64,000 nucleotides of DNA, taken from NCBI RefSeq assembly GCF_037392515.1, contig NC_090291.1:19061501-19125500 (forward strand). The letters are read 5' to 3'. Both the position numbers and the translations under genes were made by a program. Of the stretch, positions 4,854-32,976 are shown piece after piece. Source of the DNA: Haliotis asinina. Its lineage: Eukaryota; Mollusca; Gastropoda; Lepetellida; Haliotidae. Position 1 is the first letter of the stretch; each line of letters opens with the position of its first letter. Under the pieces are notes generated by a model, which did no database searches, was not told where the DNA came from, and was given only the letters and a program-made list of their open reading frames with translations.

Positions 4854-6095
4854 CTAACTGGTACCAATGACTGGATTCATACGAATCAAACGTTTCAAAT
4901 TCACATCTACGGGAAGACCATCCACTCTCCATTCCGTGACCATACCCATGTATTTACGGACACTCAGACAGCAGAGGTATTTCAAGGAACACACTCCATT
5001 GTAGGGCATTTTAGTAAAGTTTTCACATATGTTATACAACCATTTGAACCCCTTAAATGACCAGTCCTTATCACCATCAGAGCAGGAGCCAACAACGATT
5101 TCAGCTAGTGTAACGTTCTCAGTAAACAGGGCATCACTTGACATCAGCTCCAGAAGATTCGGTTTTGTTGGATCGCGTTTGTAAGGAACCGAATAATCTG
5201 GAGGTACACTGGTCAAATGGCGGACCGATATGTTCAAGTCCAGCAAGAACTGCCACACGGGTACAATCAGATCAGCGTGTTTTTCGAAATCAGCTCGACA
5301 GACATACTCATAGAGGTCCCGCACAGGTGCGTACGCACCCTTCTCAAACACCATTTGGACGATGTCACGATCACCGACATTTGACACAAAATTTGATATC
5401 ATCGTTTCTCCAGATATCCGAATTTTACTGATATCAGCTCCTGCTTCAATCAACGTCCGAGCCAGGTCCTTCAGTCCCCTGTTGAAGGTCTTGCCCAGCG
5501 GGCAGCATTCCTCGTACCAGTAATGATAATTGGGCGAGCCTTTCATGACAGACAATATGTCTTTCTCCATTTGGTCCCCTATGTTAGGATCAGCTCCTTG
5601 GGAAAGTAGATACTCCACTATGCCATCATGTCTACCAAGAATTGCCCACTGGAGAGCCGTATTTCCTCCTCCGTAGGTATTGACCTCCACCTTATGAACC
5701 TCCAGCAACTCCCGGACAAGGTCAAGGTGACCTCTGTGAGCAGCAAGATGAAGAGGTCCGCGACGAGGCTTCGTGTCAATTTCGTCCTTTCTACTGTCTT
5801 CCTCGAGGGGGGAGAATCCTTTCTCAAGAAGTAGATCAAATATGCCCTTGTGACCACTTTCAGCTGCTACACAAATAGGGCTGACAACCGATCGGGGAAT
5901 ATTCTTTATCTTAGATGTTGCATAAGGTCTTTTGAAGAACCATTTCTCAACGGCGGCTCTGTCTCCCTTGGCAATATGCTTGTTCAAGGATTTCCAGGAT
6001 CCCTTGAGAATTGGTAGTGAGGATTTAGCACTCAGAAGAAATCTTTCTCGGCGAGACCTTCCTTCTGCCATGTTGTACTGTTGGTTTGTAGACAT
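4854..6095 (-). CDS. Ankyrin-repeat and SOCS-box (ASB-like) protein, intronless
   Basis: A single 413-residue frame from ATG (6095-6093) to TAG (4854-4856). Ankyrin repeats are clear at residues 72-102, 112-141 (GPLHLAAHRGHLDLVRELL) and 144-174 (NTALQWAILGRHDGIVEYLL), with weaker ones at 206-222 and 228-255. The C-terminus, residues 370-405, has a BC-box-like helix (SLKYLCCLSVRKY) followed by a Cul5-box-like GLPVDVNLKRLI. Together these form the SOCS box that ASB proteins use to recruit elongin B/C and Cullin-5. By family knowledge the protein would be a substrate adaptor of a ubiquitin ligase, with the ankyrin repeats choosing the substrate, which is unknown. A second ATG at codon 9 is an alternative start. 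The lack of introns differs from the other genes here and fits a retroposed copy or a single-exon family member. The SOCS-box call rests on pattern only. Confidence 0.85.
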   Translation of the reverse strand: MSTNQQYNMAEGRSRRERFLLSAKSSLPILKGSWKSLNKHIAKGDRAAVEKWFFKRPYATSKIKNIPRSVVSPICVAAESGHKGIFDLLLEKGFSPLEEDSRKDEIDTKPRRGPLHLAAHRGHLDLVRELLEVHKVEVNTYGGGNTALQWAILGRHDGIVEYLLSQGADPNIGDQMEKDILSVMKGSPNYHYWYEECCPLGKTFNRGLKDLARTLIEAGADISKIRISGETMISNFVSNVGDRDIVQMVFEKGAYAPVRDLYEYVCRADFEKHADLIVPVWQFLLDLNISVRHLTSVPPDYSVPYKRDPTKPNLLELMSSDALFTENVTLAEIVVGSCSDGDKDWSFKGFKWLYNICENFTKMPYNGVCSLKYLCCLSVRKYMGMVTEWRVDGLPVDVNLKRLIRMNPVIGTS

Positions 6096-6340
6096 GATAT
6101 GTAAGTTCCGTTCTGACTACGCTAGATCACGATTCCCTTGCTCTTGTGACTTCACTATAGTATTGGTGCACTTAATTTTCAGGTACACAGACATGACAAA
6201 GCTGAAACGAGAAATGCAGGAATTAAGCAGAGCGAATGAAGGTTGATTTAGGCGATATTTACTTGTATTCAAAAACGGAAAGGGACTGTACATAAACAAA
6301 TCGGAATATTTTGTGTTTGTTTGTTTACACAAATTGCATA

Positions 6341-16739: not shown

Positions 16740-17218
16740 ATGATGGGGATATCCAGAGCAATACTGTCGCCGCTAGAGGTCGTCACACACTTCATTGAGA
16801 GTCTTCTCTTCGTCTTGGTATGTATCACGGCACTGATTTGACTGTGTCTTCGCAACCAATATAGTACACTTTCTGCAACATGTTAGTGTATACTATATGA
16901 ACTGGGTGATCAGTTTGGTATAGCATTCGTTTTATCACTATCATTATAAAGGCAAGTTAAACTTCATTCAGTTTTAACACTTATTAAGATGTATAAAAGA
17001 CGACAATGTCTCAATATCATATTTTTGAAATTACAATTGGTGGTTCCTTGAATTAATAGCTAGAGGTGTTGTGTGTTGTATAAACAGTTAACACTTAAAA
17101 GTGCGTCACATATCAATGTGCAACTTCCACTGGTACAACAACAACAGCTACTACAACTACAACTTTTCTAGCTCTACCGCACTACTACTTCGTTTCGCAC
17201 TACTACTGCTGCTGCTCT

Positions 17219-17301
<83 letters not shown>

Positions 17302-17719
17302 GTTCTTCTACTACTACTAGCTACTGCTTCCATTACTATTATTTCTACTACTACTTCTACTACTACTACTACTAGTTCTTCTTCTTCTACTACTACTACT
17401 ACTGCTGCTATTACTACTTGTCCCATAGTCTTTAGTATGGTGATCTACCTTCAGTTGTTGGCAACCTATAGCTCATTTTTATATTGCATTGTCCTCTATA
17501 GATACATTGTTTTAGGTCTAATCACTAGTTTTACTTTCTCTTCTGTGATATTCTAGTTAGTTTTACTGTCCTTCATTGATAGGTTTTCACAATGTATGTG
17601 CTATTAATTCATTTGTATTTTTATAATTTATCGTTCTCGTCACGATATGGCTGCAATATTGCCGATGTGACGTTAAATATTGACTCACTCACTCACTACT
17701 TCTTGTACTACTACTTGTT

Positions 17720-17803
<84 letters not shown>

Positions 17804-18044
17804 GCGTGGTCTGACGCGCTCTCTTGGTCCACACATGCCATCGTATCCCAGTTGCGAAGATCGATGCTCATGCTGTTGATCACAGGGTCGTGTCCAGATT
17901 TGACCATTCGCAGACTATCATAACATGGACTGGAAAGAGTGCGTGCGGAGTTAACAACAATCTATCACTACAATCACTACTAAATCAACAAAATGGCGTT
18001 AAAGATGCACTTGAAAGTAATATGTCTGAAAAAACATGCAATCA

Positions 18045-18107
<63 letters not shown>

Positions 18108-21100
18108 CGTGCGTGTGAATGATTTCTGCACAAGCATTTCCGTATAAGCATTAAGTATATAAAGATGAGTCCAGATAATTCTTCGTGCAGGAACTCCTTT
18201 ATAATAATTCATATTTAACGGGTTTTTGCTAAAAAATGCCTGGTTCTGACCAGCAAGTTCAACGGACTAAGTATTGTTGCTTTGTAGGTGGAAAGGTACG
18301 ACACCTACGTCTACACTCCGCTCCAGACGACGTTGTCACCCGCCGTGGAACGTGTGCCGCGGTCCGTGCATGTCAAAGGTCAAGATTACGTTGTCTTCTC
18401 AGCTAACATCGTGTCGTGGGCAAGAACGTTTCTGGTCATCCCCATCGCCGCCTGTCTTAAGTAAGCCAGCAAATAAAACTTCTCTGACCCGTGAACATCC
18501 GGGTAGAATCGGTCTTCATTAACCCAGCTTGTCACAAAAGGCGACTATGCTTGTCATGAGAGGTGACTAACGGGATCAGGTGGTCTTTCTCGCTGACTTG
18601 GGTGACACATGTCATCGGTTCCCAAAAAACGTAGATCGATGTTCAAACTTTTGATCACTGATTTGTCTGGTCCAGACGTGATTATTTTCCGACTGCCGAC
18701 ATACAGCTACAATGAGTGCGGCATTAAACAAACAAACACACAAACAAACAAACAAACAAACAGAGCATGTCTAAAGCATATGAATGGTTCAGGTACAACT
18801 GCTGCTGGACAGCGTTTCTGCTGGTCTGTCTCCACGACTTCCTTGACCATCTGGACGGCATTGTGGCCAAAGTCCAGAAACGGACACTGGGGCAGGTGGA
18901 TGACCCTCTACTGGGAGGCTTCATGGATGCTTTCTGTGACAAGGTGAGCTAAATGAGATTGATTCAGATGACAAGGTCATCGCGGCATCTTTCTTGCAGA
19001 TCATTAATGGCTGTGTCAATCACGGACACCCATCTTCAGCTTCTCATGCACCGCGCAATGCCGAAGGTTGTTGAAATCGTTAGGCTATTCGTAGCCGACT
19101 CTAACAGTTACAAATCTCTTTTAAAGTTGTACGTCAGTTCTAAGTCTATAAGCTTCGACCCGATTCTCCAGAGTCTAATATATGTCAGTGATACGGCACT
19201 GTATGTCTATCAAAATTAATTGAATACACAAAGCTGAACATTGAAATGCGAGAACATAGCCTCACTGCATTGCAATCTCCTGACGTCACAGTTTAAATCC
19301 AAATAAACTTTAATATGCTAGCCCGTTCTAAACATGTTTTATACAGACAAACCTCGCCGTGTACCCAGGTGTAACTGCAGTGCTACTCCCTATTCATCTT
19401 ATGATATGTTGTAATTCCGATATGACGATAAGACTGAAGGGCATGTCACTATCTTTTGATCTACTTATGACACCTGCAGTGTATATTACCATGTCGATCA
19501 CAGGTGAATTGTTCTGATCCAATCAAACCTCAAACCCACTCAATGTCATACATATCAGTTTACATCCTCTGATAACAATGAAGGTCACTGGAGGTGTTAA
19601 ACTATGTACGTCATGAATTACATCATTCCTGATGTGTAGACATATGTGTTTGTAATGCACACATATTCCTTGTCAAAGATAATATTATAACTTATGGAAA
19701 CGATAATCCTCTTTCACAACTGTCTTGGTTCATCTGTAATTTCGGGATGCCAGACTTTAATCTGTATGAAATACTTTTTTGTTCAAAAGACTGAGTGAAG
19801 ATCTAAATGAGGCGTTACCCGTTTAATACCTAAATGCAAACTGTTAGATGCAACCAAAATAAAAACTTGGAAATCAGTCATTCGATCAACACCGACCGAC
19901 CGATCGATGGGACAATCAATCAATCAAGCAAGCAGGCAAGCAATCAAGGAAGCAAGAAAGCAATCAACCAAGCAGTCAGTCAGTCAGTCAGTCAGTCAGT
20001 CACCGAAGGCCAAGTGGGCTCATATACCTTAATTATACAAAAAATATAACAAGGTTTAACATGTTATATAAACACATGCCTAACTAGACTTTAGACTTTA
20101 CTGTTCAGTTCGTATAGTATGCACAGGTTCCCCAAAGCATGGAAGAAATAAAGATATGTTCAAACCATGTGTTCGATGTGTTTAAAGTTTCCTGTATTTC
20201 CCTCTATGATTTTCATCATAAAATGGACATGTGAACGCAAAATAGTATTCGTCGTCTTGACAGTTTTTACAGACTAGATAAGTTTTACAACATAGGATCA
20301 ATGTTCTCAAAGGGCTCACAGAGCAAACAATAACAATATCGGTAAATGATTGTTTGGTGCGTGACAAAAATGTTCGCTCAGTGATAATTTACGACTTTGT
20401 TTAACCCCCAGATTGTAAACGTTCTGGCACTATGGTCCATCACCATGGTGACAGATTTCTCTGGAATGACGTGGACGCAGATGGTGATCTATCTCGTGCC
20501 GTGTGTCATCATCATGGCATATGAGTTCATCCTGGGTGTGGTGCGCGTGCAAGACTATTTCCGGGCATACTATCTGAGGTAACTTCCGGTTGTTACAGGG
20601 CATGTGTGGATCTTGTGTCATCGTTGATTTTCGTGAGTAGTTGTTCGTGCCTTTACGATCATGGAATCTGTTTCCATGGAGACTTGTTAGTCTCAACGAA
20701 GACGTTTACTAATGCTAATGTTGGGCAGACTGTTTGACTAATGCCTACATATATCTCATCTCGGTTTGGTTGAAGTGTCTTTAACGTCAAATTTGATTTA
20801 ATGCATAAAACACCGTGAATAGCGACATTAAACGTTTGATAAACGTGTTGAATTATTATTGAGTTGCTGAACACTTAGTACGAGGAATGATCCCGTTTGA
20901 AAGCCTCGTTGTAGCCTCTGTTTTGTGCATCCTTTAACAGGGAGTTCAAGAAGAGCGATGACATTCCGTGTTCCACCACAGCAGCGATCATGGAGGGGAA
21001 ATTGAAGGAAAAGTTGGAATCAATGGGCATCGCCTTTTTGTGTTTGGCCCAGTCTTCAGCTTCTGGTGTCTGCACCATATGTGAGTACCAGCAGAACGTC

Positions 21101-24100
21101 CGTTGTCACTGGGGCGGTGGTATAGCCTAGTGGTTAAAGCGTTCGCTCGTCAGGTCGAAGACTCGGGTTCGATTCCCCATATGAGTTCAATGTGTGAAGT
21201 CTGTTTCTTCGCCGTGGCATTATTAGAAACATTGCAAAAAGCGGCGTAAAGCCATACTCATTCACTTACACCAACCATTTGTAGCCCTTGTACAAGCTTT
21301 CAGTAATGACCAGGGTGGTAAAAAATGGCGTCTTAACCACATATTTGTCAATTGAAACGTCATTTCCCTTTACACAATTTCCAATGCCTTTCTGGCAGTC
21401 GTCATCGAATTTTGCCAACTTAGTCACATTACACTGCCCGCACGCGAAACTATAGACCCTTGTTTAATAGTGTTCGAGAAACACAACGATACGTTATTTG
21501 TCTTGGTGATGAATTAGGTTGTCAGAGTGGTGTTTCTAGCATTATATTTGCAGTGTTTGGGCAAACGTTTCCAGCCTGTTAGACCCGGTGTTTATCCCCA
21601 TAGAGGTATAGTGTATGAAGCCCATTTCTGGTGTCCCCTGTAGTGATATTGCTAACCCTCACTCCTTTGAAAAAACCCAAAAGCTGTGAACACATCGTAC
21701 AATTATCTGAACACACTGCCACCCTTGGTTTTCCAGCTGGGATCACGGGATTGGTCTGCTTGACCCTGTCTATCAGGCTAGCCCACGCCAGTCTGACGTC
21801 CAAGTTGAAGGCGCGACAGACGGACGTACCAAGATCCGATGTGATGAAAGATGAAGAAGACGAGCTCGAGAAGGAGAAGGGACAAGATAAGGAAAATGTA
21901 AACCTCTAGAAACTTCCTTTATCCTTGCACTACCTTTGACTTTCATTGCATTGCAAAAATCACCGCTTTGCCATTCAAATCATGTTATGTCTGCTGAATA
22001 TATATCAATTTTGCTTAGTGTGCATACTGTCAAATACATTATCCCAGTAGTAAGTTTGGATTTTGTTTTCATTTTCCATCTGTTAAAAGTATATTTGTGA
22101 GATACTTTTTATCTCAAGATGTTAGTACTTCGTGCTTTAATAACTGAGGAATGGCTTTCATGATGGCTTACCATGGCAACCATTGGCACCGGCACATGTG
22201 TTTGTTGTTTTCAGTCATATCTAAGAGGTATTCTGGTGTCCAGGCTGTCTGACTGTGTAGATCGAATCATGGTATCATTATGAAGACTCGGTTATTTACA
22301 AACGGCAGTCATATAGCTGGAATATTGCTGAGTGTAGGACTAAATGAGAATACTAACGCAAAGGTAGTTTTTTTCACAGGGTAAAAACATTTTGAACGTC
22401 ATCTTTCATGATAATAAATGTAATTAAAAAAAGTAAAATCGCAATATACACGTAAAAACACTCTCATATTTCCGCCTATTACGGAAACACCGGACAGTTA
22501 ATAAGCAGGCATCACGTTCATTACGTCATATGAGTTTCTGGTGACCGTGATCTTTAACACAGAGGGTTTTTTGTGTGCAATTTTCAGTATTCTCCTTTGA
22601 AAACTAAAGTAGCAACTCGCGTCATGGTTGTTGGTAACGCATTAGATTTGATTAGTCAGTCATATGGATAAACATATGCCGAAAAATATCCTGAGTATAT
22701 CCAATCGCACAAGCAATGTAAGTTTGTTTAACCATGCATGGGTGTATTCAAATATATTAAAATTAATCAGCTGTAACAGCGTATCAATAGTCATTTATTT
22801 CTTGGTGTCTTCGTGCATGTATTTGCTCATGCCTGGGATATTAAAAAAGTGCTCTATTTGTATGAACTCAAACATGTGGTTGGCGAGTTCATATCTCTCT
22901 TCTATGGTCTCCTACAAGAGAAATCGTCACGTTGTCGTATGGTTGCCCTCGGGAACAAAATTACAAAATTAGCGAAATTGACAAAGCTTGACATTTCAGC
23001 ATATTCATTATGTCGCATTGTCGCGCATTTTAAGGCTCTTTTCACACACCTCAGATGGGGCAACGTTGCGAAAAGGCAACATGTTTTGACCTTGAACATT
23101 ATCGTTGTGTCGCATTGTCGCCGGTTGAATGAATAAAATATTCAAGGCACGAGGGTGCAGCTTTGCAACAATGTACTTTCTAGGATTCCATACTGTTCTT
23201 GTTCTGAATATGAACTGTAAGCTCCAATTAATCCAAATACGTATGAATAATGTGGAGTTTACACCCGGGTTCGATTCCCCATATGAATACAAAATGTGAA
23301 GACCATTTCTAGTTTTCCCCGTTGTGATACTGCTGTAACATTGCTAACAGCGGCCTAAAACTAAACTCATTCACTCACATATCTTGTGTTCTGTAGTCAC
23401 ACTAACCCTGTTACCCACTGTTGTGTCAAGTTCGGACTACTGGACATTCGCGAATTCCTTCATATAATTCGATAGCATGGTGCTGAATGTGATAATCAAT
23501 TCATGTCACGGCGAGATGATCACATGACAGTCACGTGACTATTAACTAGTAGCATACAAGATGATAACTTATAAACACTCACCGAACTGTTGTATAGCGA
23601 ACCGAGTGCATGTTTTGTACCAGTTGTACTGATAACATAAAGTACCTCACGGCAGACAGGTAATGTGAAGGTCGTATGGTCACGTGACTCCACCTGACGT
23701 CAATGAAACTCGACGTGGAATGACCGTGACATTGGGAATGTGCCGTACGTGCATGCACGTGGAAGCAACTGTGAACGTAACCATATGACGGTTGCTTTAC
23801 GTGATAAGAGAAATGACAACCGGATTATTTTAGAATCTAATCAGCATAGGGTGTTTCCTGGTGTGTCGATCACACGTAGAGTCGTTCGTCTTGTCATATG
23901 GTTCTCTTTTACGTGGAGGTAGTAGAGTCGCAATGAAATGACATACTTTCTCACTTCTTTACTTTTTGAACGGAATCCTTTATAGGTCGTTAGGCATAGT
24001 AGTCGAGCACCGTTGTGTCGAACTCTGCTAATTCTATATCTCTGTTGTCTCGATATAACATCTCGATCCTTCTCTTTTAACTCGACTTCTAAAATTATAA

Positions 24101-27100
24101 TTTGGAGATGTTCAGGATAATCAAAATATATTAACATAACGTGTACTTCGACGTACAAACGTGTTTACATCAATACGATGATTGAAATGTAAATATGACA
24201 ATAGCTTGAAGTTTAAAGTTACAGTATTAAAAATACATCAACTTATGTTCTTAAACGTTCACGATCATTGTCTTAAAATTTCAAAAACGACATGTAAAAC
24301 TCCAAAATGACGTACAAGCGTACTATTTGGAATGAGGGAGGTGTTGTTTTATTTTTGTCCGCTGTGACTAGAGGTTGAGGCAGGTCTCTCGCCATTGTGA
24401 CAACGTCTCATTGCTTTTGCGAACCTGACGTATGCTAAAAAAAAAAAGGAAAAAAAAGAACAAAGCCAAAAACAAAACAACATAAGGGTCATTCAGATGA
24501 ATATTGATGAGTGTATAAGAACATTCATGCACGTTTTACTGCATTGAAATTTCTGGAATATTGCTAAAAACGGTGTGTAAAACTATACCCACTCTCTCAT
24601 TGTTGTATGTAGCTTTGCAATGTATGATATGTGTGTCAGGTGGTTATCATTGTGGCATATCTAACTAGGAGACTCTAGCAAGTTTATCACCTAACTTTGA
24701 TAGTAGATAACATGTATCTCATTACACAGACAGGTATTGTAACCGAACTTCTTAGAGGCGCTGTTATCTTGTACTTGACACGTGAGGTGACACTGAACTG
24801 GTTCAAGGATATGATGTATATGACCTACCCACTTGGGTACACACTTGGATTCTTAATTAATCACGGTCATGTTCGGTTTGAGTGCATACGTGTCATTTTA
24901 ACCCTACGACGCCTTTTTACTCATGATATCAATCACTGGACTGTCCGTCAGATTGGTATTCAGACACCCATTCCTGTCATAAGTTCCAACAAGAAGCTCG
25001 ATGCTCATGATGTCACTGGCTTGGCAAGTTCAAACTCCATTGTTGCTCTGTCAGATGAAAAACAAACAAACAAATAAACATTCGTCACTGTTTGTTCGCT
25101 ATGAGCACCATTTGGAAGGAAGCACAAAATATTAAGTATCAAATATCAAATGTCGCTGTTGGGATGACGTCACTTCCGAAACAACTCTTTCGAAGATTGG
25201 GGCTCAAGGGCTTCAGATACATTAAATAATTGCGGCTGTACTGGTCTGTGCAAATCCCCACAAACATGGATGAAACAAATAGTTCGACATAATAAATATT
25301 AAAAGCAGCCGACTGAATCATTTGATGACGTTTCAAACGAGAAGATTTGTGAATGTCGAATTCAGTTAGCAGATATGGCGGAATTTTTCTTTCTTTGCGG
25401 TATTTTAAGTGGCAGTTAGTGGAAATAATATCACGAAATAATATCACGTTTGTGTATTGAAAAACACCGACACTGTTAAACTAGTCCTCACAAGTATCTG
25501 CATATTTATCATATATATTGAACAAGTTTCGAAAAAATGAAATCTGATAAAAGTAAGCGTTCAGGTTTGTGTCTACTCTCTAAAAACCTGACAAAAAACA
25601 GAGTTGCGTTTATTTTGGTGTTTAGTATATATGCATGTTACGAACGAGGTTATTCACAAACGTTTCTTATCATCACAATAAGGAGGCGGTGGGTTAGCCC
25701 AGTGGTTAAAACGTCCGCAGTGATGGTGCCAGCTCTTTACTGCACTGACCCAGACCCGACCGATCTGTCCTTATTGTGTCCACTTAATGCAAAGCACCAG
25801 GCTCGGTAACAATGTGTACCATGTCGTTGGATATGACACAGCATGGGTTTCGAACCATCCACTCTCCCCTTCCTCGTCAGACACCCTGTCCACAACACCA
25901 TCACAGGAGCGCAGCATTTTCCATTGTTTAAGATATTTTTTTCTCTGGTGTTTTGAAAGGTGCTAGGAATTATACTATTTAAATTATAATGTGAGTTTAC
26001 TTCTAGCAACATTTCCAAGATGTTTGATTGCTGTTTCGGACGGAAATTTTGATAACCATTTATACATGGCATCATGTCTACTGCACACGAAAACCTCAAA
26101 TCGGAATTCTGCGCTGCATTGATGAGAAATCACATTTTAGCTTTTTTTTTGTTAAAGACTAGTTCATTTACGGCATAAATGACATCAATCACAAAAGAAT
26201 GTCGTGAAAGAATATCAGCTCATATGTCAAAACCTTGTCAGAATGTGCGATAGTTGATTTGCTGATAGGTATAAAATCGATATTACTTTAATTCAAATGC
26301 ATACTGATTCTGTAGGTTAGCCATTGCGACTGCCCAAACTACCATACTTATAGGGTTGCAGTGAGTTACTAAATTGAAGGGAGAGAGAAGTTATTTCCGA
26401 TTAGTAGATACATTAATTAATAACACTCTCTACTTTATTTAGACAAAATTGAAATATACTTTAAATCTTCTCTAAGTTTCCTTCTCCATCCTGTATAACT
26501 ACCACAACACTGAAACAAGAGCACTTTGTCAAGTAACTCAGAGATGTATGTGATTTTAGACTAATTCCCCCCCCCCACCCCCCACCCCCCCCCTTGTCAG
26601 GACACCCCATTATGAGAGTAGGGGTGCATTGTCTGACCCTAATTAACCTCTGATGTTTTTGTGGGCCAATTGGGATGTGGGCAATTAGGGATGTGGGCGA
26701 ATAAAGACTAAACCGCTCATCTAATACTTGTCAAGCAGTAAGCTGTTACAATATGTTCCATCATAAAAGTTGAAAAATGATCCCTCCCTCATTTTGTTCG
26801 GCAGACAAGTTTTCATAATAACTGACAGTGGGTCCTTCATTCAAATTGGCAAATGACACATGGTGATATTTGACGAATTATCTTTAACAGGAATTTAGAA
26901 TAATTACTTGCATGTTTGGTTGTCTTTGTTGGTTGTTTGGGTGACAAACAAACGCTTTAATAATTTAAATTTACTGTATATACGTCACTGTTATACCAAG
27001 CCCCCGTTGCTTGGAGAAATAGTCAACCTACACACGCAAATGCCACTTGTCAATTTCTCGCGATTCATTTGCTAATGCAGTAAACGCTCAAGTTGTACGT

Positions 27101-30100
27101 TCCCTGCCATTAAGATAGTTACCACGACATAAAGGAAATACCATTGGGAGACAAATCATATATTTAGATACAACGTTCAGTACGATACAATTAACTAACA
27201 CAAACTGATTCTTGCAAAATATTATTCAGGGTCGAAGGTCAACTGGAACTCAAGTTCAGCCAATCGAAGAAGAGGATCTAAAGGTGGATCACATCAAGAT
27301 GGAAAATAAGTATGTTGCAAAGTTCCTAGTTGACGAATAAAATATTTGAATTCTTACAAATTAGCAAATAATCACCCCGATCCTTTTTGTAAAACATCCT
27401 GCAAGAGTTTGTCCCTGTACCTATGCATCCATCTTGTGAGTACCCCATTGTCGCTTGATGTATTAAACTATAAGATAAGCCCTAAATGGTCTTGCCTACA
27501 AAACGTTCACTAATGTTCTTATAAAGTTGTAGAAAAATTTTCAGGGTTTTCTAAGACATGACCATTTCTGAATACAACACATAAATATCCACGATGCTTT
27601 CCAACAACACAATGTGCTGATACAAATTTTTGATACATGTTTTACAAATTGTTTAATTTGTGACCATTAAAATAATATTCAGACAGAATTAGCCCAACGC
27701 AGTAAAACGTATATCTATCTACGACAGTTTCAATTTTTCAAAAGTAATAGTGTATATTTGAAGTATAACGGATTTATTGTTCACATTAAGACGTAAAGAA
27801 TGTCATCGTTTCTACTGAATTTAACTCCATGAAGATACACGCGGAGCCTTTAGCGTCACCAATAGTTGTGTAATGGAATGAAACTTATATACTGAGGGAA
27901 ACAAATAAGGGAACGCGCTCCTGTATTCATTGTCAGGTTTCTTCACTGGCTTTGTATTCCACTGCGGGTGAAAATTTGAGAATAAATATGGGACACATCC
28001 CTGAAGTGATGGTTCCCTTATTTGCTTCCTTCAGAGTATACAGTGGCAGCTGTCAAAACCGGCATCTGCCCAATCCGGCAAGTTGTCAACACTGGCATAA
28101 AATCTCAGACCTACCCGTGGTTTGCACATTTATCATCAGCTCTACAAGTCGGCACATTGTGTAAACCGGATTATTTCTTCAGTCCCAATGAGTGCCGGTT
28201 TAGACAGGTTCTACTGTATATTATTTATTTTTCAATGTGCGATCTATCCCATATATGTGTTTGCAGTGTATTTCGTACGGCTTCTGTTCCACTTGTTTTT
28301 ACAATTATTGTCAAGTACAAGTATTGTCAATTACACCCTGCATCTGTCAAAGTAAATTCAATTTGTAAGCATCGTTTGCATAATGTATGTATTTTTAACT
28401 GCATTTTCAATTTCAGACGAGTCACACGAATCATATCAAAGGAAGTCAAAGGAAATGGTATTGGCGGACACATTTATATAGCTTTTGTAATATTGCCATG
28501 TTTATTTTGCGATGCATCCACCTTGGTTTGTTGTTGTCAACCAACTGTGTTAATCCTGTCCAAAATGTTTCCAATGCTTTACAGGTAATCAAGGAACAAT
28601 TCACCACGAAACACTGACAGAATTCTTCAGTATATCTTTGTTCTATCTAAACATCGTTTTATCATTAATACCAACGTTGCTTTTGCACATACTTTCCCGT
28701 AGGCATTCCTACGAACGGGATGATCCGGGCTAGAACTGGTCTTCAGTAACCCATGCTTGTCGTAAGAGGCGAATTACGGGATCGGGTGGTCATGCTTGCT
28801 GACGTAGTTGACAATGTCATGGTTTCCCAGTTAGGTACATTTATGCTCATGCTGTAGATCACTGGATTATCTGGTCCAAACTTGGTTATTTACAGACCGC
28901 CGCCATAAAGCTGGACTTTTGCTGAGCGTGGCGTAAATAAATCCCCAAAAATCGTGCACATGTCAAATGAAACAATGTTCAAAGTGGCGTTTTACTAAAC
29001 GTCACTATCTCAATCTTGACACTAAAGCCCACCGCTTTCGGCCTCATAACCTCACTCTCGTATGCACATCAAGCATATACTACCAAAATTAATACATTTG
29101 CATTTCTTTTTACATAGAGGTATATGTATCCAATCGGAAAACATTGATAAGCCGTGGTTAACGTGTTTTACATAGATGAACCAAGGAAGAAAAGATCGAA
29201 GATCTACGTCTTTTTCCTTGCAGCGAGTTGTACGAGAAGAGGACGATCTTACAGGACTCGGTACCTATCACTCATCTGGACTCCAGGGTGGAGAGGGTGT
29301 ACACCGTCGGCTGCTTCGACCTCTTCCATCACGGCCATGTGAAACTGATGCAAAGAATGAGGAAACTTGGCAAACAGGTCAGTGACCTTTGTTTCAAAGT
29401 GATGTCCACTGTTTATTTGATCCCGATTTCATCTTCAGTGCTCACCAGGATTTTTTAGACGTAATATTCTTGTAAATTTGATTGTAGCTAGCGTTCCTTA
29501 CAATCGCCGGCGGCTGAAAGGCTGGTGTAAATCCAACTAGGGTCCCTGCAGGTAGTAAAGGTACTGCAAGTCCCCATGGTCCCTAATGTGGTGATCTACC
29601 TTCAGTTGTTGGCGATTTATAGCCTGTTTTTATATTGTATTGTCCAAATAGTGATATTAGTTTTAACTTTCCACACTAGTTTTAAGTCAAACCGTGATAT
29701 TCTAGTTGTTTTACTGTCTTTCGTGGACAGGTTTTTTTTATAATATACATATAGTACTTTTCTGTGTTAACTATTCTCGTCACGATATGGCTGCAATATT
29801 GCCGATATGACGTTAAACATTAACTCACCCACTCACTCATCGTCAGTGTTACGAAATGATTTCCAGATTCAAATACTAAGTTTGTCGGTTCGTGCAGAAC
29901 AAAGCTGGGAAAGCAGTAAATGTCCACACAAAATACATGACTATCTAACAAATTATTCTAAAACACCCTATTTTATATTTCAAGACCGAAACACAACGTT
30001 GAAGGTAGAATATGTGACTGTAGCAAATTTGACTGTCCTTGCAATATGGCAGTCATTTTCAAGTGTGTGGAAGCATCTGTCTGTTCATAAATCAAGAAAA

Positions 30101-32583
30101 GTGGAAGGAATTTGATATTTCCAGTCAGGCTTACCGTCAAAGCAGATGGAAATTTAATCGGGTTGTAATTGTTCTGGAATAGCCCTATGTCTCTAACACT
30201 GCTACATGTTTACAACTAGATTTTCGAACCTGTGGTACCACTAAACCTTTGCCAGTCAATTTACTTTCTACCTGTGTGTGCTGGTCAAATGAGGCTATGA
30301 CAGAATTTGGTATTTTACCAACGCTTCAGTCGTTTGCGGTTACTGAAAGTTGCTACAATTTCGCCTTTAAAGTCACCGGGTTATCAGATCAACTCCTTGT
30401 GACATCTGGGTATACGCCACTATATATAGTTCCCAAGAACGTTGATAAATGTCCGAGATTCAACCTGATGATAACGCACAGTTCGTTATCACCATACATG
30501 TGATGACGGACATTACGGAAATGCGAAACGTCAAAGACCCGTGAAGGTCCCGGGGTAGAATAGGCCTTCAGCAACCCATGCTTGCCATAAAAGGCAACTG
30601 TGTTTGTCGCAGAGCTTCCAACCCCAAGAAAAAAAGCTTGAGAAGCCGGGGTTCAGGGCGGAGACCTGGTTGGGGGTCAGGGGGATTCGTCCCCTCTGAA
30701 ACTGAAGAAAAGTAGTGTTTTTAACACCCTAAAAGTGGAACTGATAATCGAAAAATGAGTGAAAAGTGACTTTGATTAATTTACGTTATTTTTTATAAAA
30801 AAGCTTGACATTATCACTGTCCGCCGTGAGAGCGTGACAAATGCTTAAAAACCGAGTCTCAAGCCAAAGGCGTGAGAGTTGGCAGGTCTGTTGTAAGAGA
30901 CGGCTAACGGGAACGGGTGGTCAGGCTCGCTGAACTTGGTGGACACATGTGATAAGACGGATGTATGTCTTAGGCGTCTATCTGTTCGTCATGAACGCCA
31001 GCAAGAGAATACTGTACATTCTTCGGTCATGCGTTGTGTAACAGACAGTACCAAATACTCCTCGTTCTTATCAGTGAAGACGACACAGTGATGGTATTCT
31101 TCTCTGCCATCAGGTCGTCGTCGGCGTGCATGACAGTCGAAGTATCTGTACGCTCAAGAAACGGGTACCCATTGACAGCACCCACACCAGGATGATGAAT
31201 GTCAAGCAATATGCGGACGTGGTAAGAACATATCAACTGTTATTTCAGTTTCATTTCATATTTAGAGTTTAAGCAACATCCATCGTTTTTCCCAGTACAT
31301 AATTGACCCTGTATCGAGCTATAGTTCACCGACCAGTGAGAGATAGTATAAACATCTTGATACTCTGACACGTATAAACCCGGGCCCTTATTCGCCAAAC
31401 GTTCGTAGCCCTAAAAATTCGTAACTTTGATCGTAGCCAAAATGTTAAGAATGGGCTTACGAAGTTCGAAAGGTTCCGAACGTTTCGAGAATAGTCTGGC
31501 AGATTACTAAAGCTATGATTTCACAGAGTCTTCTAGAAAGGGTGTGATCACCTGATCACGAGCGTGATGTTTTTGTGTTCCTCTTACGATATGCCTATGT
31601 TGCTGTGACACCATTCAAAACCGTGATCCCAATGGTAAACTTCTCCCTTATTTTTCCAAAGTGAATGCGGTTGGGAAATTCGAAACTGTAATCACTGAAC
31701 ATTAATTTGTCTGCTGACACTTTTTTATGTGCAGTTAGATGTGCAACTGTAGTGGTATCTTAGCAATTAACAATACGCAGAGTGAATTAGTTTTACTAAC
31801 CTTACGAGCTCGTTGACTGGGTGCAGTTTTACAGAGCGACTTAAGCGCTGATGTTAACGTAACTCCCATACCTTAACTTGGATTTGCGACAGCTGTAGAT
31901 CTGTGTTGTTTTCAGGGGTGACACCCTTGACTGGAAAAGGTCCACACTCTAAGACTTATTTCTAGGGTCATAAGCTCATGCTTGTCATAAGAAGCGACGT
32001 TGGTGATCGGGTGATCAGACTTGCTGACTTGGTTGACACGTGTCATCGTACCCCAGTTGTGTAGTTTTAGTGCTAATGATGTTGATCACTGGACTGTCTG
32101 GTCCAGAATCGATTATTTACAGACTGCCGTCACATAGCTGGAATATTGCTGAATGCGGCGTTAAACAACAACCAGACCAATCAAAGGTCGGATTCAACAG
32201 TCTGCAGCTGAAGACTAGCCCACTCCTTTTGAAACGGATCGTTTTCGCACATGGATACACTATGTGAAGTCCATTTCTGGTGTCGCCCGCCTTGCGGCGT
32301 AAAACTATACTCACTCACCCCTTTATAAACTCAGGTCTTCTGTGTTGCTGGCACGGATCCAACCCCGTACATCCGTGCAATCTTCGACAACAAAACCGAA
32401 AGCGCCCTTTACGTGCGAGGTGACGACATGCAGAACTTCCCAGCGCGTGAACTGTGCGAGAAGCTGATGACCGTCAAGTTCTTGCCCTACACAGAAGGCG
32501 TGTCCAGCACAAAACTGAGGAAAGAGTATTGTAACTCGTCTCAGTGGGACTCCAGATTCGATGATCTCAATCTCTTCTACTGA
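16740..32583 (+). CDS. Bifunctional CDP-alcohol phosphotransferase / cytidylyltransferase fusion, about 495 aa
   Basis: Ten coding exons: 16740-16817, 18288-18460, 18766-18943, 20412-20578, 20941-21080, 21737-21897, 27230-27309, 29224-29377, 31113-31221 and 32335-32583 (TGA). All nine junctions are GT-AG and phase-consistent. Residues 1-270 form a multi-pass membrane domain with the CDP-alcohol phosphotransferase signature D111-x2-D114-G-x2-A118-K119 ... G134-x3-D138-x3-D142 (HDFLDHLDGIVAK, GGFMDAFCDK); Lys replaces the usual Arg. Residues 275-325 are a charged linker. Residues 350-495 are a cytosolic-type nucleotidyltransferase: YTVGCFDLFHHGH (HxGH at 361-364), VRGDD and a YTEGVSSTK variant of the RTEGISTT motif. 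Expected chemistry: CTP plus a phospho-alcohol gives CDP-alcohol, then head-group transfer to a lipid. The membrane part is most like ceramide phosphoethanolamine synthase-type enzymes, by inference. Exon 9 has one extra base near 31137 that breaks the frame. The exon 3 acceptor lies in a SINE tail. Confidence 0.85.
17205..17410. repeat. (CTA)n and related triplet repeats
   Basis: Long CTA array at 17217-17300, then mixed CTA/TTC triplets. It produces spurious poly-Leu and poly-Ser frames. Confidence 0.95.
17416..17695 (+). mobile_element. LINE 3' end (family C), copy 1
   Basis: Matches 29540-29835 over GTGATCTACCTTCAGTTGTT, TTTTTATATTG, GTGATATTCTAGTT and CGTCACGATATGGCTGCAA, then GACGTTAAA and ACTC repeats. 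No coding part is left. The tail is related to that of SINE families A and B. Confidence 0.7.
17695..17802. repeat. (CTA)n microsatellite
   Basis: About 30 triplets, sitting directly between the ACTC tail of the LINE copy and a truncated family B SINE. Confidence 0.95.
17810..17935 (+). repeat. Family B SINE, internal fragment
   Basis: CATGCCATCGTATCCCAGTTG, GATCGATGCTCATGCTGTTG and GTCCAGATTTGACC keep the family order. Both ends are missing. Confidence 0.65.
18045..18116. repeat. (TA)n(TG)n microsatellite
   Basis: About 11 TA units followed by about 22 TG/CG units. Confidence 0.95.
18484..18765 (+). repeat. Family B SINE abutting exon 3 of the fusion gene
   Basis: Head GACCCGTGAACATCCGGGTAG, GACACATGTCATCGGTTCCC, GTCTGGTCCAGACG, tail GAGTGCGGCATTAAAC and an (AAAC)n run. 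The last bases of the run, CAGAG, form the acceptor of exon 3 at 18766. Confidence 0.85.
19912..20003. repeat. (CAAT/CAAG)n and (CAGT)n repeats
   Basis: Imperfect tetranucleotide run passing into seven CAGT copies. Confidence 0.9.
21111..21268 (+). repeat. Family A SINE, best preserved
   Basis: Has a consensus RNA polymerase III A box (TAGCCTAGTGG, 21123-21133) and B box (GGTTCGATTCC, 21167-21177), then GTGTGAAGTCTGTTTCT and the tail AAAGCGGCGTAAAGC. It sits 30 bp downstream of the exon 5 donor. Confidence 0.9.
21598..21655 (+). repeat. Family A SINE, middle fragment
   Basis: GAAGCCCATTTCTGGTGTCC and GTGATATTGCTAA only. Confidence 0.65.
22250..22350 (+). repeat. Family B SINE, tail half
   Basis: GGTTATTTACAAACGGCAGTC, ATATAGCTGGAATATTGCTG and AGTGTAGGACTAAA. 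Confidence 0.7.
23263..23378 (+). repeat. Family A SINE, lacking the A box
   Basis: Starts at the B box (GGGTTCGATTCCCC) and runs to the ACTCAC tail. Confidence 0.75.
24551..24600 (+). repeat. Family A SINE, 3' tail only
   Basis: TCTGGAATATTGCTAAAAACG and ACCCACTCTCTCA. Confidence 0.6.
25682..25722 (+). repeat. Family A SINE, head only
   Basis: GGCGGTGGGTTAGCCCAGTGG, TTAAAACG. It is broken by the following third-family SINE. Confidence 0.55.
25735..25915 (-). repeat. Third tRNA-like SINE
   Basis: Aligns with 36580-36775 over GTCC(A/C)TTAATGC, ACCATG(T/A)CG and TTCGAACCATCCACTCT, which resembles a reversed B box. Not assigned to a named family. Confidence 0.4.
26567..26594. repeat. Poly-C tract
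   Basis: Nearly pure C broken by two CACC steps. Likely to be a weak spot for sequencing. Confidence 0.9.
28041..28216. mobile_element. pogo/Tigger-like MITE, 176 bp, copy 1
   Basis: Flanked by TA on both sides. The inverted ends begin CAGTGGCAGCTGTC and end GACAGGTTCTACTG. It has exactly the same length as the inverted copy at 33986-34161. No transposase. Confidence 0.75.
28708..28945 (+). repeat. Family B SINE
   Basis: GGGCTAGAACTGGTCTTCAG, GTCGTAAGAGGCG, GGTCCAAACTTGG and a tail with GAGCGTGGCGTAAAT. Confidence 0.85.
29540..29835 (+). mobile_element. LINE 3' end (family C), copy 2
   Basis: Longer copy of the element at 17416-17695. It starts near AGGTAGTAAAGGTACTG and ends GACGTTAAACATTAACTCAC plus ACTC repeats. 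Confidence 0.7.
30535..30950 (+). repeat. Family B SINE split by a roughly 280-bp insertion
   Basis: The head half is at 30535-30605 (GACCCGTGAAGGTCCC to TGTGTTTGTCG). The next family segment resumes at about 30890 (TTGTAAGAGACGGCTAACGG). The inserted 30608-30890 has no recognised family and a G-rich start. Confidence 0.7.
31389..31493. repeat. Imperfect inverted repeat, 17-18 bp arms
   Basis: TTATTCGCCAAACGTTCG at 31389-31406 pairs with CGAACGTTTCGAGAATA at 31477-31493. Between them lie further CGTAG/CTACG-like pairs. Resembles a small fold-back MITE. Confidence 0.5.
31905..32180 (+). repeat. Family B SINE
   Basis: GACACGTGTCATCGTACCCC, TGATCACTGGACTGTCTGG, ATAGCTGGAATATTGCTGAA and GCGGCGTTAAAC with an AAC-rich tail. 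Confidence 0.85.
32251..32320 (+). repeat. Family A SINE, middle and tail
   Basis: ATGTGAAGTCCATTTCTGGTG then GCGGCGTAAAACTATACTC. Ends 14 bp before the exon 10 acceptor of the fusion gene. Confidence 0.75.
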
Positions 32584-32753: not shown

Positions 32754-32976
32754 TAAGAATGAAGATTTTTATGGATAACAACTTCTTTATGTGAGAACAC
32801 AACGTTTCGGAGTTAATGCTTACTCCTTCATCAGGTATACTCCGACGTTTCGGAGTTAATGCTTACTCCTTCATCAGGTGTATTCCGATGTATACCTGAT
32901 GAAGGAGTAAGCATTAACTCCGAAACGTTGTGTTCTCACATAAAGAAGTTGTTATCCATAAAAATCTTCATTCTTA
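32754..32976. mobile_element. 87-bp inverted repeat with hammerhead ribozyme cores; Penelope-like element remnant
   Basis: The arms 32754-32840 and 32890-32976 are reverse complements; the 49-nt spacer holds a third partial copy. Each copy has CTGATGA, a stem (GGAGT/ACTCC closing an 8-nt loop) and GAAAC, the invariant core of type I hammerhead ribozymes. The cores lie at 32896-32926 (+), 32847-32877 (-) and 32804-32834 (-). Two minus cores run in tandem, separated by GTC and a GTATAC-containing segment, as in Penelope-like element terminal repeats. No reverse transcriptase is present; this is a terminal fragment. Confidence 0.65.

Follow-up and report, generated by a model that had tools for sequence, protein, structure and literature searches.

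The 64,000-nucleotide stretch of the Haliotis asinina genome analysed here (contig NC_090291.1, positions 19,061,501 to 19,125,500 of the forward strand; hereafter the window) carries a candidate gene that joins, in one open frame, a CDP-alcohol phosphotransferase domain, a charged linker of 81 residues and a cytidylyltransferase-like domain, in that order. We propose, with a probability of a little under six in ten, that it encodes a bifunctional membrane enzyme, which would activate a head group and then pass it to a lipid. The gene model was rebuilt by a script from anchors read by eye, GT-AG borders within 2 bases of these anchors being tried. A single combination stayed open, yielding 10 exons, 1461 nt and 486 amino acids, and it agrees with the ten-exon, single-frame gene of a preliminary description of this DNA on the start, the end and the AA/C junction between positions 27309 and 29224. 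The exons, numbered from the first letter of the window, are as follows:

16740..16817, plus strand: exon 1, start codon and N-terminal hydrophobic helix (open frame, GT donor, hydropathy peak at residues 8-26).
18288..18460, plus strand: exon 2, N-terminal region and transmembrane segment 1 (gene model; the Pfam match begins here; own-genome protein search).
18793..18943, plus strand: exon 3, transmembrane segment 2 and CDP-alcohol phosphotransferase motif (gene model, Pfam; low acceptor score, -0.30).
20412..20578, plus strand: exon 4, transmembrane segments 3 and 4 (gene model, Pfam, hydropathy).
20941..21080, plus strand: exon 5, charged loop and transmembrane segment 5 (gene model, hydropathy, residue counts).
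21737..21897, plus strand: exon 6, transmembrane segment 6, after which the charged linker begins (gene model; donor score -0.98).
27230..27309, plus strand: exon 7, linker exon essential to the fusion (splice and codon ranking among 247 cassettes).
29224..29377, plus strand: exon 8, first part of the cytidylyltransferase domain, including HHGH (acceptor score 7.23; Pfam).
31114..31221, plus strand: exon 9, central part of the cytidylyltransferase domain, including the conserved lysine of KKR (gene model, alignment).
32335..32583, plus strand: exon 10, RGDDM and PYTEGVSST motifs and stop codon (gene model, alignment).

Exon 1 is based on its open frame, its donor and the hydropathy peak, and the codon usage score does not favour its frame; the acceptor-like AG directly upstream of it makes a 5' non-coding exon possible. 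The Pfam domains sit on exons 2-4 and 8-10 and the hydrophobic helices on exons 1, 5 and 6, so that the joining of the two domains depends on exon 7.

Both domains are real and lie in the same frame, as had been claimed: each scores above its curated Pfam cut-off within the unique open model, and chance is excluded as an explanation of either. The first matches CDP-OH_P_transf (PF01066) at residues 65-174 (E 2.3e-7; 31.8 bits for a cut-off of 22), and the second matches CTP_transf_like (PF01467) at residues 343-467 (E 2.2e-13; 51 bits for a cut-off of 21). The preliminary description had placed a D-x2-DG-x2-AK...G-x3-D-x3-D membrane domain upstream of a HxGH motif, and we recovered this order, with DHLDGIVAK-x14-GGFMDAFCD at residues 102-133, where all acidic residues are kept, and HHGH at residue 352.

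The hydropathy profile of the first part of the chain has peaks that, taken alone, fit six helices plus the N-terminal hydrophobic segment. Lysines and arginines number 5 in the N-terminus, 3 in the loop between helices 2 and 3, 8 in the 4-5 loop and 14 in the tail, against 1, 0 and 0 in the remaining loops, whose lengths are 5, 5 and 1 residues. By the positive-inside rule, these counts point weakly to the motif, the tail and the second domain lying on one side of the membrane, that of the cytosol; the signal is weak because the non-cytosolic loops are very short and because acidic residues (6, 4, 7 and 21 in the N-terminus, the 2-3 loop, the 4-5 loop and the tail, respectively) balance the basic ones. 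Should the N-terminal segment be a membrane-spanning helix too, only the N-terminus would switch side. Two features of this domain weigh against our proposal: AK stands where the family motif D-x2-DG-x2-AR-xn-G-x3-D-x3-D has AR, and three of the four regions called cytosolic, the tail included, hold more acidic than basic residues. A sequence search of the PDB with the first domain gave no match at E 10.

The second domain keeps the HxGH motif, the lysine (KKR) and GDD in our alignment. It reads PYTEGVSST, its tyrosine replacing the arginine of the RT[EQ]G found in PCYT1, TagD and the first PCYT2 domain. Its identity is 20% to PCYT1 and 24% to the first PCYT2 domain of the same genome, 26% to the human one and 28-33% to 14 bacterial rows, a comparison biased by the fact that 13 of these 14 rows had been fetched for their likeness to the second domain, the exception being E. 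coli HldE (28%). In the PDB, the lowest E-value belongs to an ethanolamine-phosphate cytidylyltransferase (3e-15, summed over two domains of 30.4 and 26.9 bits), and the best single-domain score to TagD (47.9 bits). Phage and plasmid relatives, found for the second domain only, amount to 11 and 28 records, respectively (20 of the 28 plasmid records being listed), all below 60% identity; one scan for close relatives in viral contigs found none.

The same CTP_transf_like domain, with YTxGxSST and GDD, occurs in prokaryotic phosphoenolpyruvate (PEP) mutase-cytidylyltransferases of the Fom1 type (PF01467 + PF13714). In these proteins it is fused to PEP mutase and has ADLxH in place of FDLFH, whereas in the abalone gene it is fused to the phosphotransferase; Pfam finds no PEP mutase domain in the 486-residue chain, and the PEP mutase of this genome sits on contig C1. 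Our prokaryotic sample consists of the best 80 of 165 loci, retrieved with a query that held a Fom1 fragment, so that the counts are biased towards that type. With this proviso, YTx[GDN]xSS[TSG] was found in 73 of the 80 fetched loci and EDK-x5-NS, in the same frame, in 70; in the one fetched locus that was scanned, Pfam confirms PEP mutase and CTP_transf_like. The YTxGxSST motif is thus common to the PEP mutase-fused cytidylyltransferases and in part to other enzymes as well: the tyrosine also occurs in the HldE-like locus L032 and in L109, and it is not specific to phosphonate enzymes. L109/L126, from a Bacteroides finegoldii plasmid, belongs to a capsule-type cluster, in which a cytidylyltransferase with PYTPGVSTT adjoins a class-V aminotransferase, a CDP-glycerol glycerophosphotransferase and an LTA synthase, no PEP mutase being annotated within the 19 kb viewed.

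Two trees were built, of 35 and 33 rows, with 24 and 23 of the 80 fetched loci, respectively; the second was built without L059 and L110, and L043, PEP-mutase-linked by its tree label, is without the exact EDK-x5-NS string. In both, the second domain sits on a long branch, outside the PEP-mutase-linked clade of the best tree and beside HldE-like rows, with unstarred supports of 89/48 and 77/83. Topology tests rejected neither a clade with PCYT (p-AU, the approximately unbiased test, 0.339) nor one with the PEP-mutase-linked rows (0.389) or with TagD (0.437). Membership of the PEP-mutase-linked clade is suggested by the shared PYTxGxSST but not shown, the trees leaving the domain unplaced. We conclude that it is an old or fast-evolving cytidylyltransferase-like domain, and unlikely to be a recent copy of PCYT1 or PCYT2.

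Could the second domain be an adenylyltransferase, or a regulator devoid of catalysis, so that there would be no channel for a head group activated by cytidine diphosphate (CDP)? The HldE-like neighbours in both trees agree with this, and further points against a cytidylyltransferase are that its best NCBIfam match is the bacterial HldE adenylyltransferase model (59.3 bits, below the cut-off of 181.5), that its sole PHROG match is likewise of the HldE adenylyltransferase type, and that the RT[EQ]G[IV]ST of animal PCYT1 and of the first PCYT2 domain, with arginine in three of three PCYT rows, has given way to YTEGVSST. We nevertheless regard this alternative as very unlikely, since the domain shares GDD with the TagD and the PEP-mutase-linked rows and not the GGD of E. 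coli HldE and L032, the tyrosine occupies the same place in the 73 loci counted above (a biased sample), and the partner domain works on substrates linked to CDP or to cytidine monophosphate (CMP). In our proposal, the second domain would be catalytic, and cytidine triphosphate (CTP) its probable donor.

A single transcript would have to span both domains, and we consider from the sequence that one gene is quite probable. Counting exon 7, the interval from exon 6 to exon 8 holds 247 AG..GT cassettes, 30-250 bases long, that are open and keep the frame. Exon 7 ranks first on the sum of splice and total codon scores (9.0, against 7.4 for the runner-up), and third by total, or fourth per codon, on codon usage, where all cassettes above it overlap it. 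These ranks come from a crude splice matrix and from a codon usage score trained on 900 codons of other genes of the same genome, and the preliminary description probably picked exon 7 for similar features. That description had also stressed the exact fit of the 27309/29224 junction: the AA/C fit holds, and it is weak evidence by itself, as 247 cassettes keep the frame. The next-best frame-keeping cassette of the interval, at window positions 24730-24836 (TGIVTELLRGAVILYL...), could be an alternative exon.

Several results tell against the joining of the two domains. On splice score alone, exon 7 ranks only 14th of 247, and the scores of the exon 6 donor (-0.98) and of the exon 7 sites (-0.31 and -0.05) are poor. 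The codon score discriminates known exons badly: read in their own frame, exons 1, 2 and 4 reach -0.11, -0.06 and 0.00 per codon, and for exons 1 and 8 one of the wrong frames outscores the true one. The stretch from exon 6 to exon 8 contains 16 AATAAA or ATTAAA signals, starting with one at 22413, versus 1 in the 1017 bases past exon 10, and 237 ATG-containing candidate first exons could splice in frame into exon 8. Together with an in-frame TAG, read from the sequence a few codons beyond the exon 6 donor, and an in-frame ATG inside exon 7, these weak sites, poly(A)-type signals and possible first exons are what two adjacent genes on the same strand would predict, namely a phosphotransferase ending at the TAG after exon 6 and a separate cytidylyltransferase with its first exon within 21.9-29.2 kb. 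We hold this arrangement to be possible, if doubtful: exon 7 is the top coding cassette of the interval on the combined score, and it prolongs the acidic linker of exon 6 in frame with both of its neighbours. The frame of exon 8 extends back only to 29180, without an ATG, and the second domain consequently needs an upstream exon.

The two reactions that we attribute to the fused gene are those of the Kennedy pathway (PCYT2 or PCYT1, followed by EPT1 or CEPT1), where they are carried out by separate proteins and, in this genome too, encoded by separate genes, as the preliminary description had stated for the pathway in general. A genome search with PF01467 returned five rows from seven scored candidates, which we read as CoA synthase, PCYT1 (two exons), PCYT2 and the fusion gene; more PCYT1 and PCYT2 exons were found by motif and with human probes. 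The PF01066 search returned two rows, read as cardiolipin synthase and an EPT1/SELENOI-like gene, from a list that is incomplete, as it missed the fusion gene itself. From the presence of separate PCYT1-, PCYT2- and EPT1-like genes, so named by reading, it follows that the fusion would add to the Kennedy pathway and act beside it.

It is unlikely, in our view, that the fusion is an extra Kennedy copy making phosphatidylethanolamine or phosphatidylcholine from phosphoethanolamine or phosphocholine and diacylglycerol. The lowest PDB E-value of the second domain and the clade with PCYT, not rejected by the topology test, are compatible with such a copy, but that E-value sums two modest domain scores where TagD reaches its own in one, RT[EQ]G is lost, the first domain has no PDB sequence match, and the genome already holds the three Kennedy genes.

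Searching the genome with the fusion protein gave 11 rows, of which 10 are its own exons and one is a weak fragment on contig C13, and the fusion is thus single-copy. An intact second copy was rejected, the only non-self row (C13:28507568-28507762; E 0.995; 31%) being an exon-2-like stretch. Its surroundings (C13:28488001-28535500) were covered as five contiguous pieces: a regular-expression search gave two matches that look like chance, the first with a stop and the second with HHGH out of context, and tblastn of four of these five pieces gave no further convincing exon among the matches listed. By eye, a similar stretch lies about 1 kb on, with tyrosine-recombinase-like sequence nearby, and the C13 stretch may be an exon that a mobile element has taken along.

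The genome also contains a PEP mutase gene (C1:97514320-97520714), identified by three profile rows in order, of which one exceeds the cut-off (63.9 bits), with an exon carrying EDK-x5-NS between the first two. The four joined pieces match PDB 1m1b, from Mytilus edulis, at E 1.2e-104, a strong match that suits a molluscan genome. The abalone is probably able to form carbon-phosphorus bonds, and the presence of PEP mutase fits a phosphonate maker. EDKXXXXXNS is the motif that separates PEP mutase from its relatives (PMC6697681). Sphingomyelin-synthase-type genes probably coexist with the fusion, as a search with PF14360 (PAP2_C) returned seven rows, three of them over the cut-off, at C5:41418957 and C2:28935012.

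Bacteria offer a parallel with separate genes. In 7 of the 80 fetched loci (L031, L042, L053, L065, L076, L098 and L104), at least, since the flanks covered 5 kb at most, a PEP-mutase-linked cytidylyltransferase is followed, a few kb further along its strand, by a CDP-alcohol phosphotransferase motif. These seven loci, from Acidobacteria, Aminicenantes, Verrucomicrobiota and Nonomuraea, are likely phosphonate-lipid gene sets; in L031 and L104, the intervening open frames appear to encode phosphonopyruvate decarboxylase and one other enzyme. Sequence similarity between the phosphotransferase of L104 and the first domain of the fusion is slight (BLASTP E 0.18). Cyanobacterial phosphonate clusters are described as holding pepM, ppd, an NTP transferase and a CDP-alcohol phosphatidyltransferase (PMC5987646). 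From these clusters and our bacterial loci, the pairing of the two activities for phosphonate lipids has bacterial precedent.

We propose that the C-terminal domain would load CMP, taken from CTP, onto a small head group that carries a phosphate or a phosphonate (phosphoethanolamine or 2-aminoethylphosphonate, for instance), and that the N-terminal six-helix phosphotransferase would then release this head group from CMP and attach it to a lipid alcohol. The charged linker would keep the second active site on the same side as the first, probably the cytosolic one, and active sites so tethered could hand on the activated head group. As to the substrates, ceramide and 2-aminoethylphosphonate are attractive but unproven. 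We lean towards an aminophosphonate head group because of the PEP mutase, the tyrosine motif and the report that the phosphoethanolamine cytidylyltransferase of Trypanosoma brucei does not accept 2-aminoethylphosphonate (PMC2784872), which implies that a dedicated enzyme may be needed. Speaking against such a need, PCYT2 and EPT1 have been proposed from KEGG to incorporate 2-aminoethylphosphonate in a diatom (PMC9765203). More tentatively still, and with odds well below even, the gene might be the missing ceramide aminoethylphosphonate synthase of marine invertebrates, in which the second domain would make CMP-2-aminoethylphosphonate and the first would transfer it directly to ceramide. The 2-aminoethylphosphonate route would then begin with PEP mutase, and the gene would be the animal counterpart of the bacterial sets of a PEP-mutase-linked cytidylyltransferase and a nearby CDP-alcohol phosphotransferase.

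The ceramide phosphoethanolamine synthase (CPES) of Drosophila is also a CDP-alcohol phosphotransferase and has, to our knowledge, no cytidylyltransferase, in contrast with the abalone protein, where the phosphotransferase precedes one in the same chain. In the fly, the phosphoethanolamine cytidylyltransferase is Pect (PMC3861124). The CPES motif is printed in one paper with (A/Y)R and a spacer of 8-16 (PMC9550178), a range that includes the abalone spacer of 14, and in another with AR and a spacer of 7-12 (PMC9875363), which leaves it outside; AK fits neither form, and the narrower range is one more point to be set against our proposal. Drosophila CPES acts in the Golgi lumen (PMC9550178), whereas the abalone charges point weakly to the cytosolic side.

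A nucleotidyltransferase and a CDP-alcohol phosphotransferase also share one chain in the archaeal bifunctional IPCT/DIPPS (NF041135). This profile matches only the phosphotransferase part of the fusion (17.7 bits versus a cut-off of 580), its domain order looks reversed (phosphotransferase part at profile positions 259-351 of 419), and its nucleotidyltransferase is presumably MobA-like, of another family.

Elsewhere in the window, a 420-codon open frame on the minus strand (4854-6116) encodes ankyrin repeats (Pfam Ank, 69.2 bits) with a sub-threshold SOCS box. Just downstream of the last exon, at 32790-32975, a direct repeat followed by an inverted copy, seen by eye, resembles a small hairpin element. 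Rfam and tRNA scans of the 64-kb window gave no match.

In the excerpts found of the open-licence PubMed Central literature, there is no report of an animal fusion of these two domains, which may already be annotated elsewhere, and no animal gene is named for the last two steps of 2-aminoethylphosphonate incorporation into lipids. The abalone sequence joins in one predicted animal gene two usually separate enzymes, for the activation and the attachment of a head group, and makes this gene a candidate maker of phosphonate-bearing membrane lipids. Should the product be ceramide phosphoethanolamine, the fusion would show how an activated head group reaches the site where the sphingolipid is formed. 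With a single fused candidate gene in a genome that also has PEP mutase, the question of how phosphonolipids are made becomes testable.

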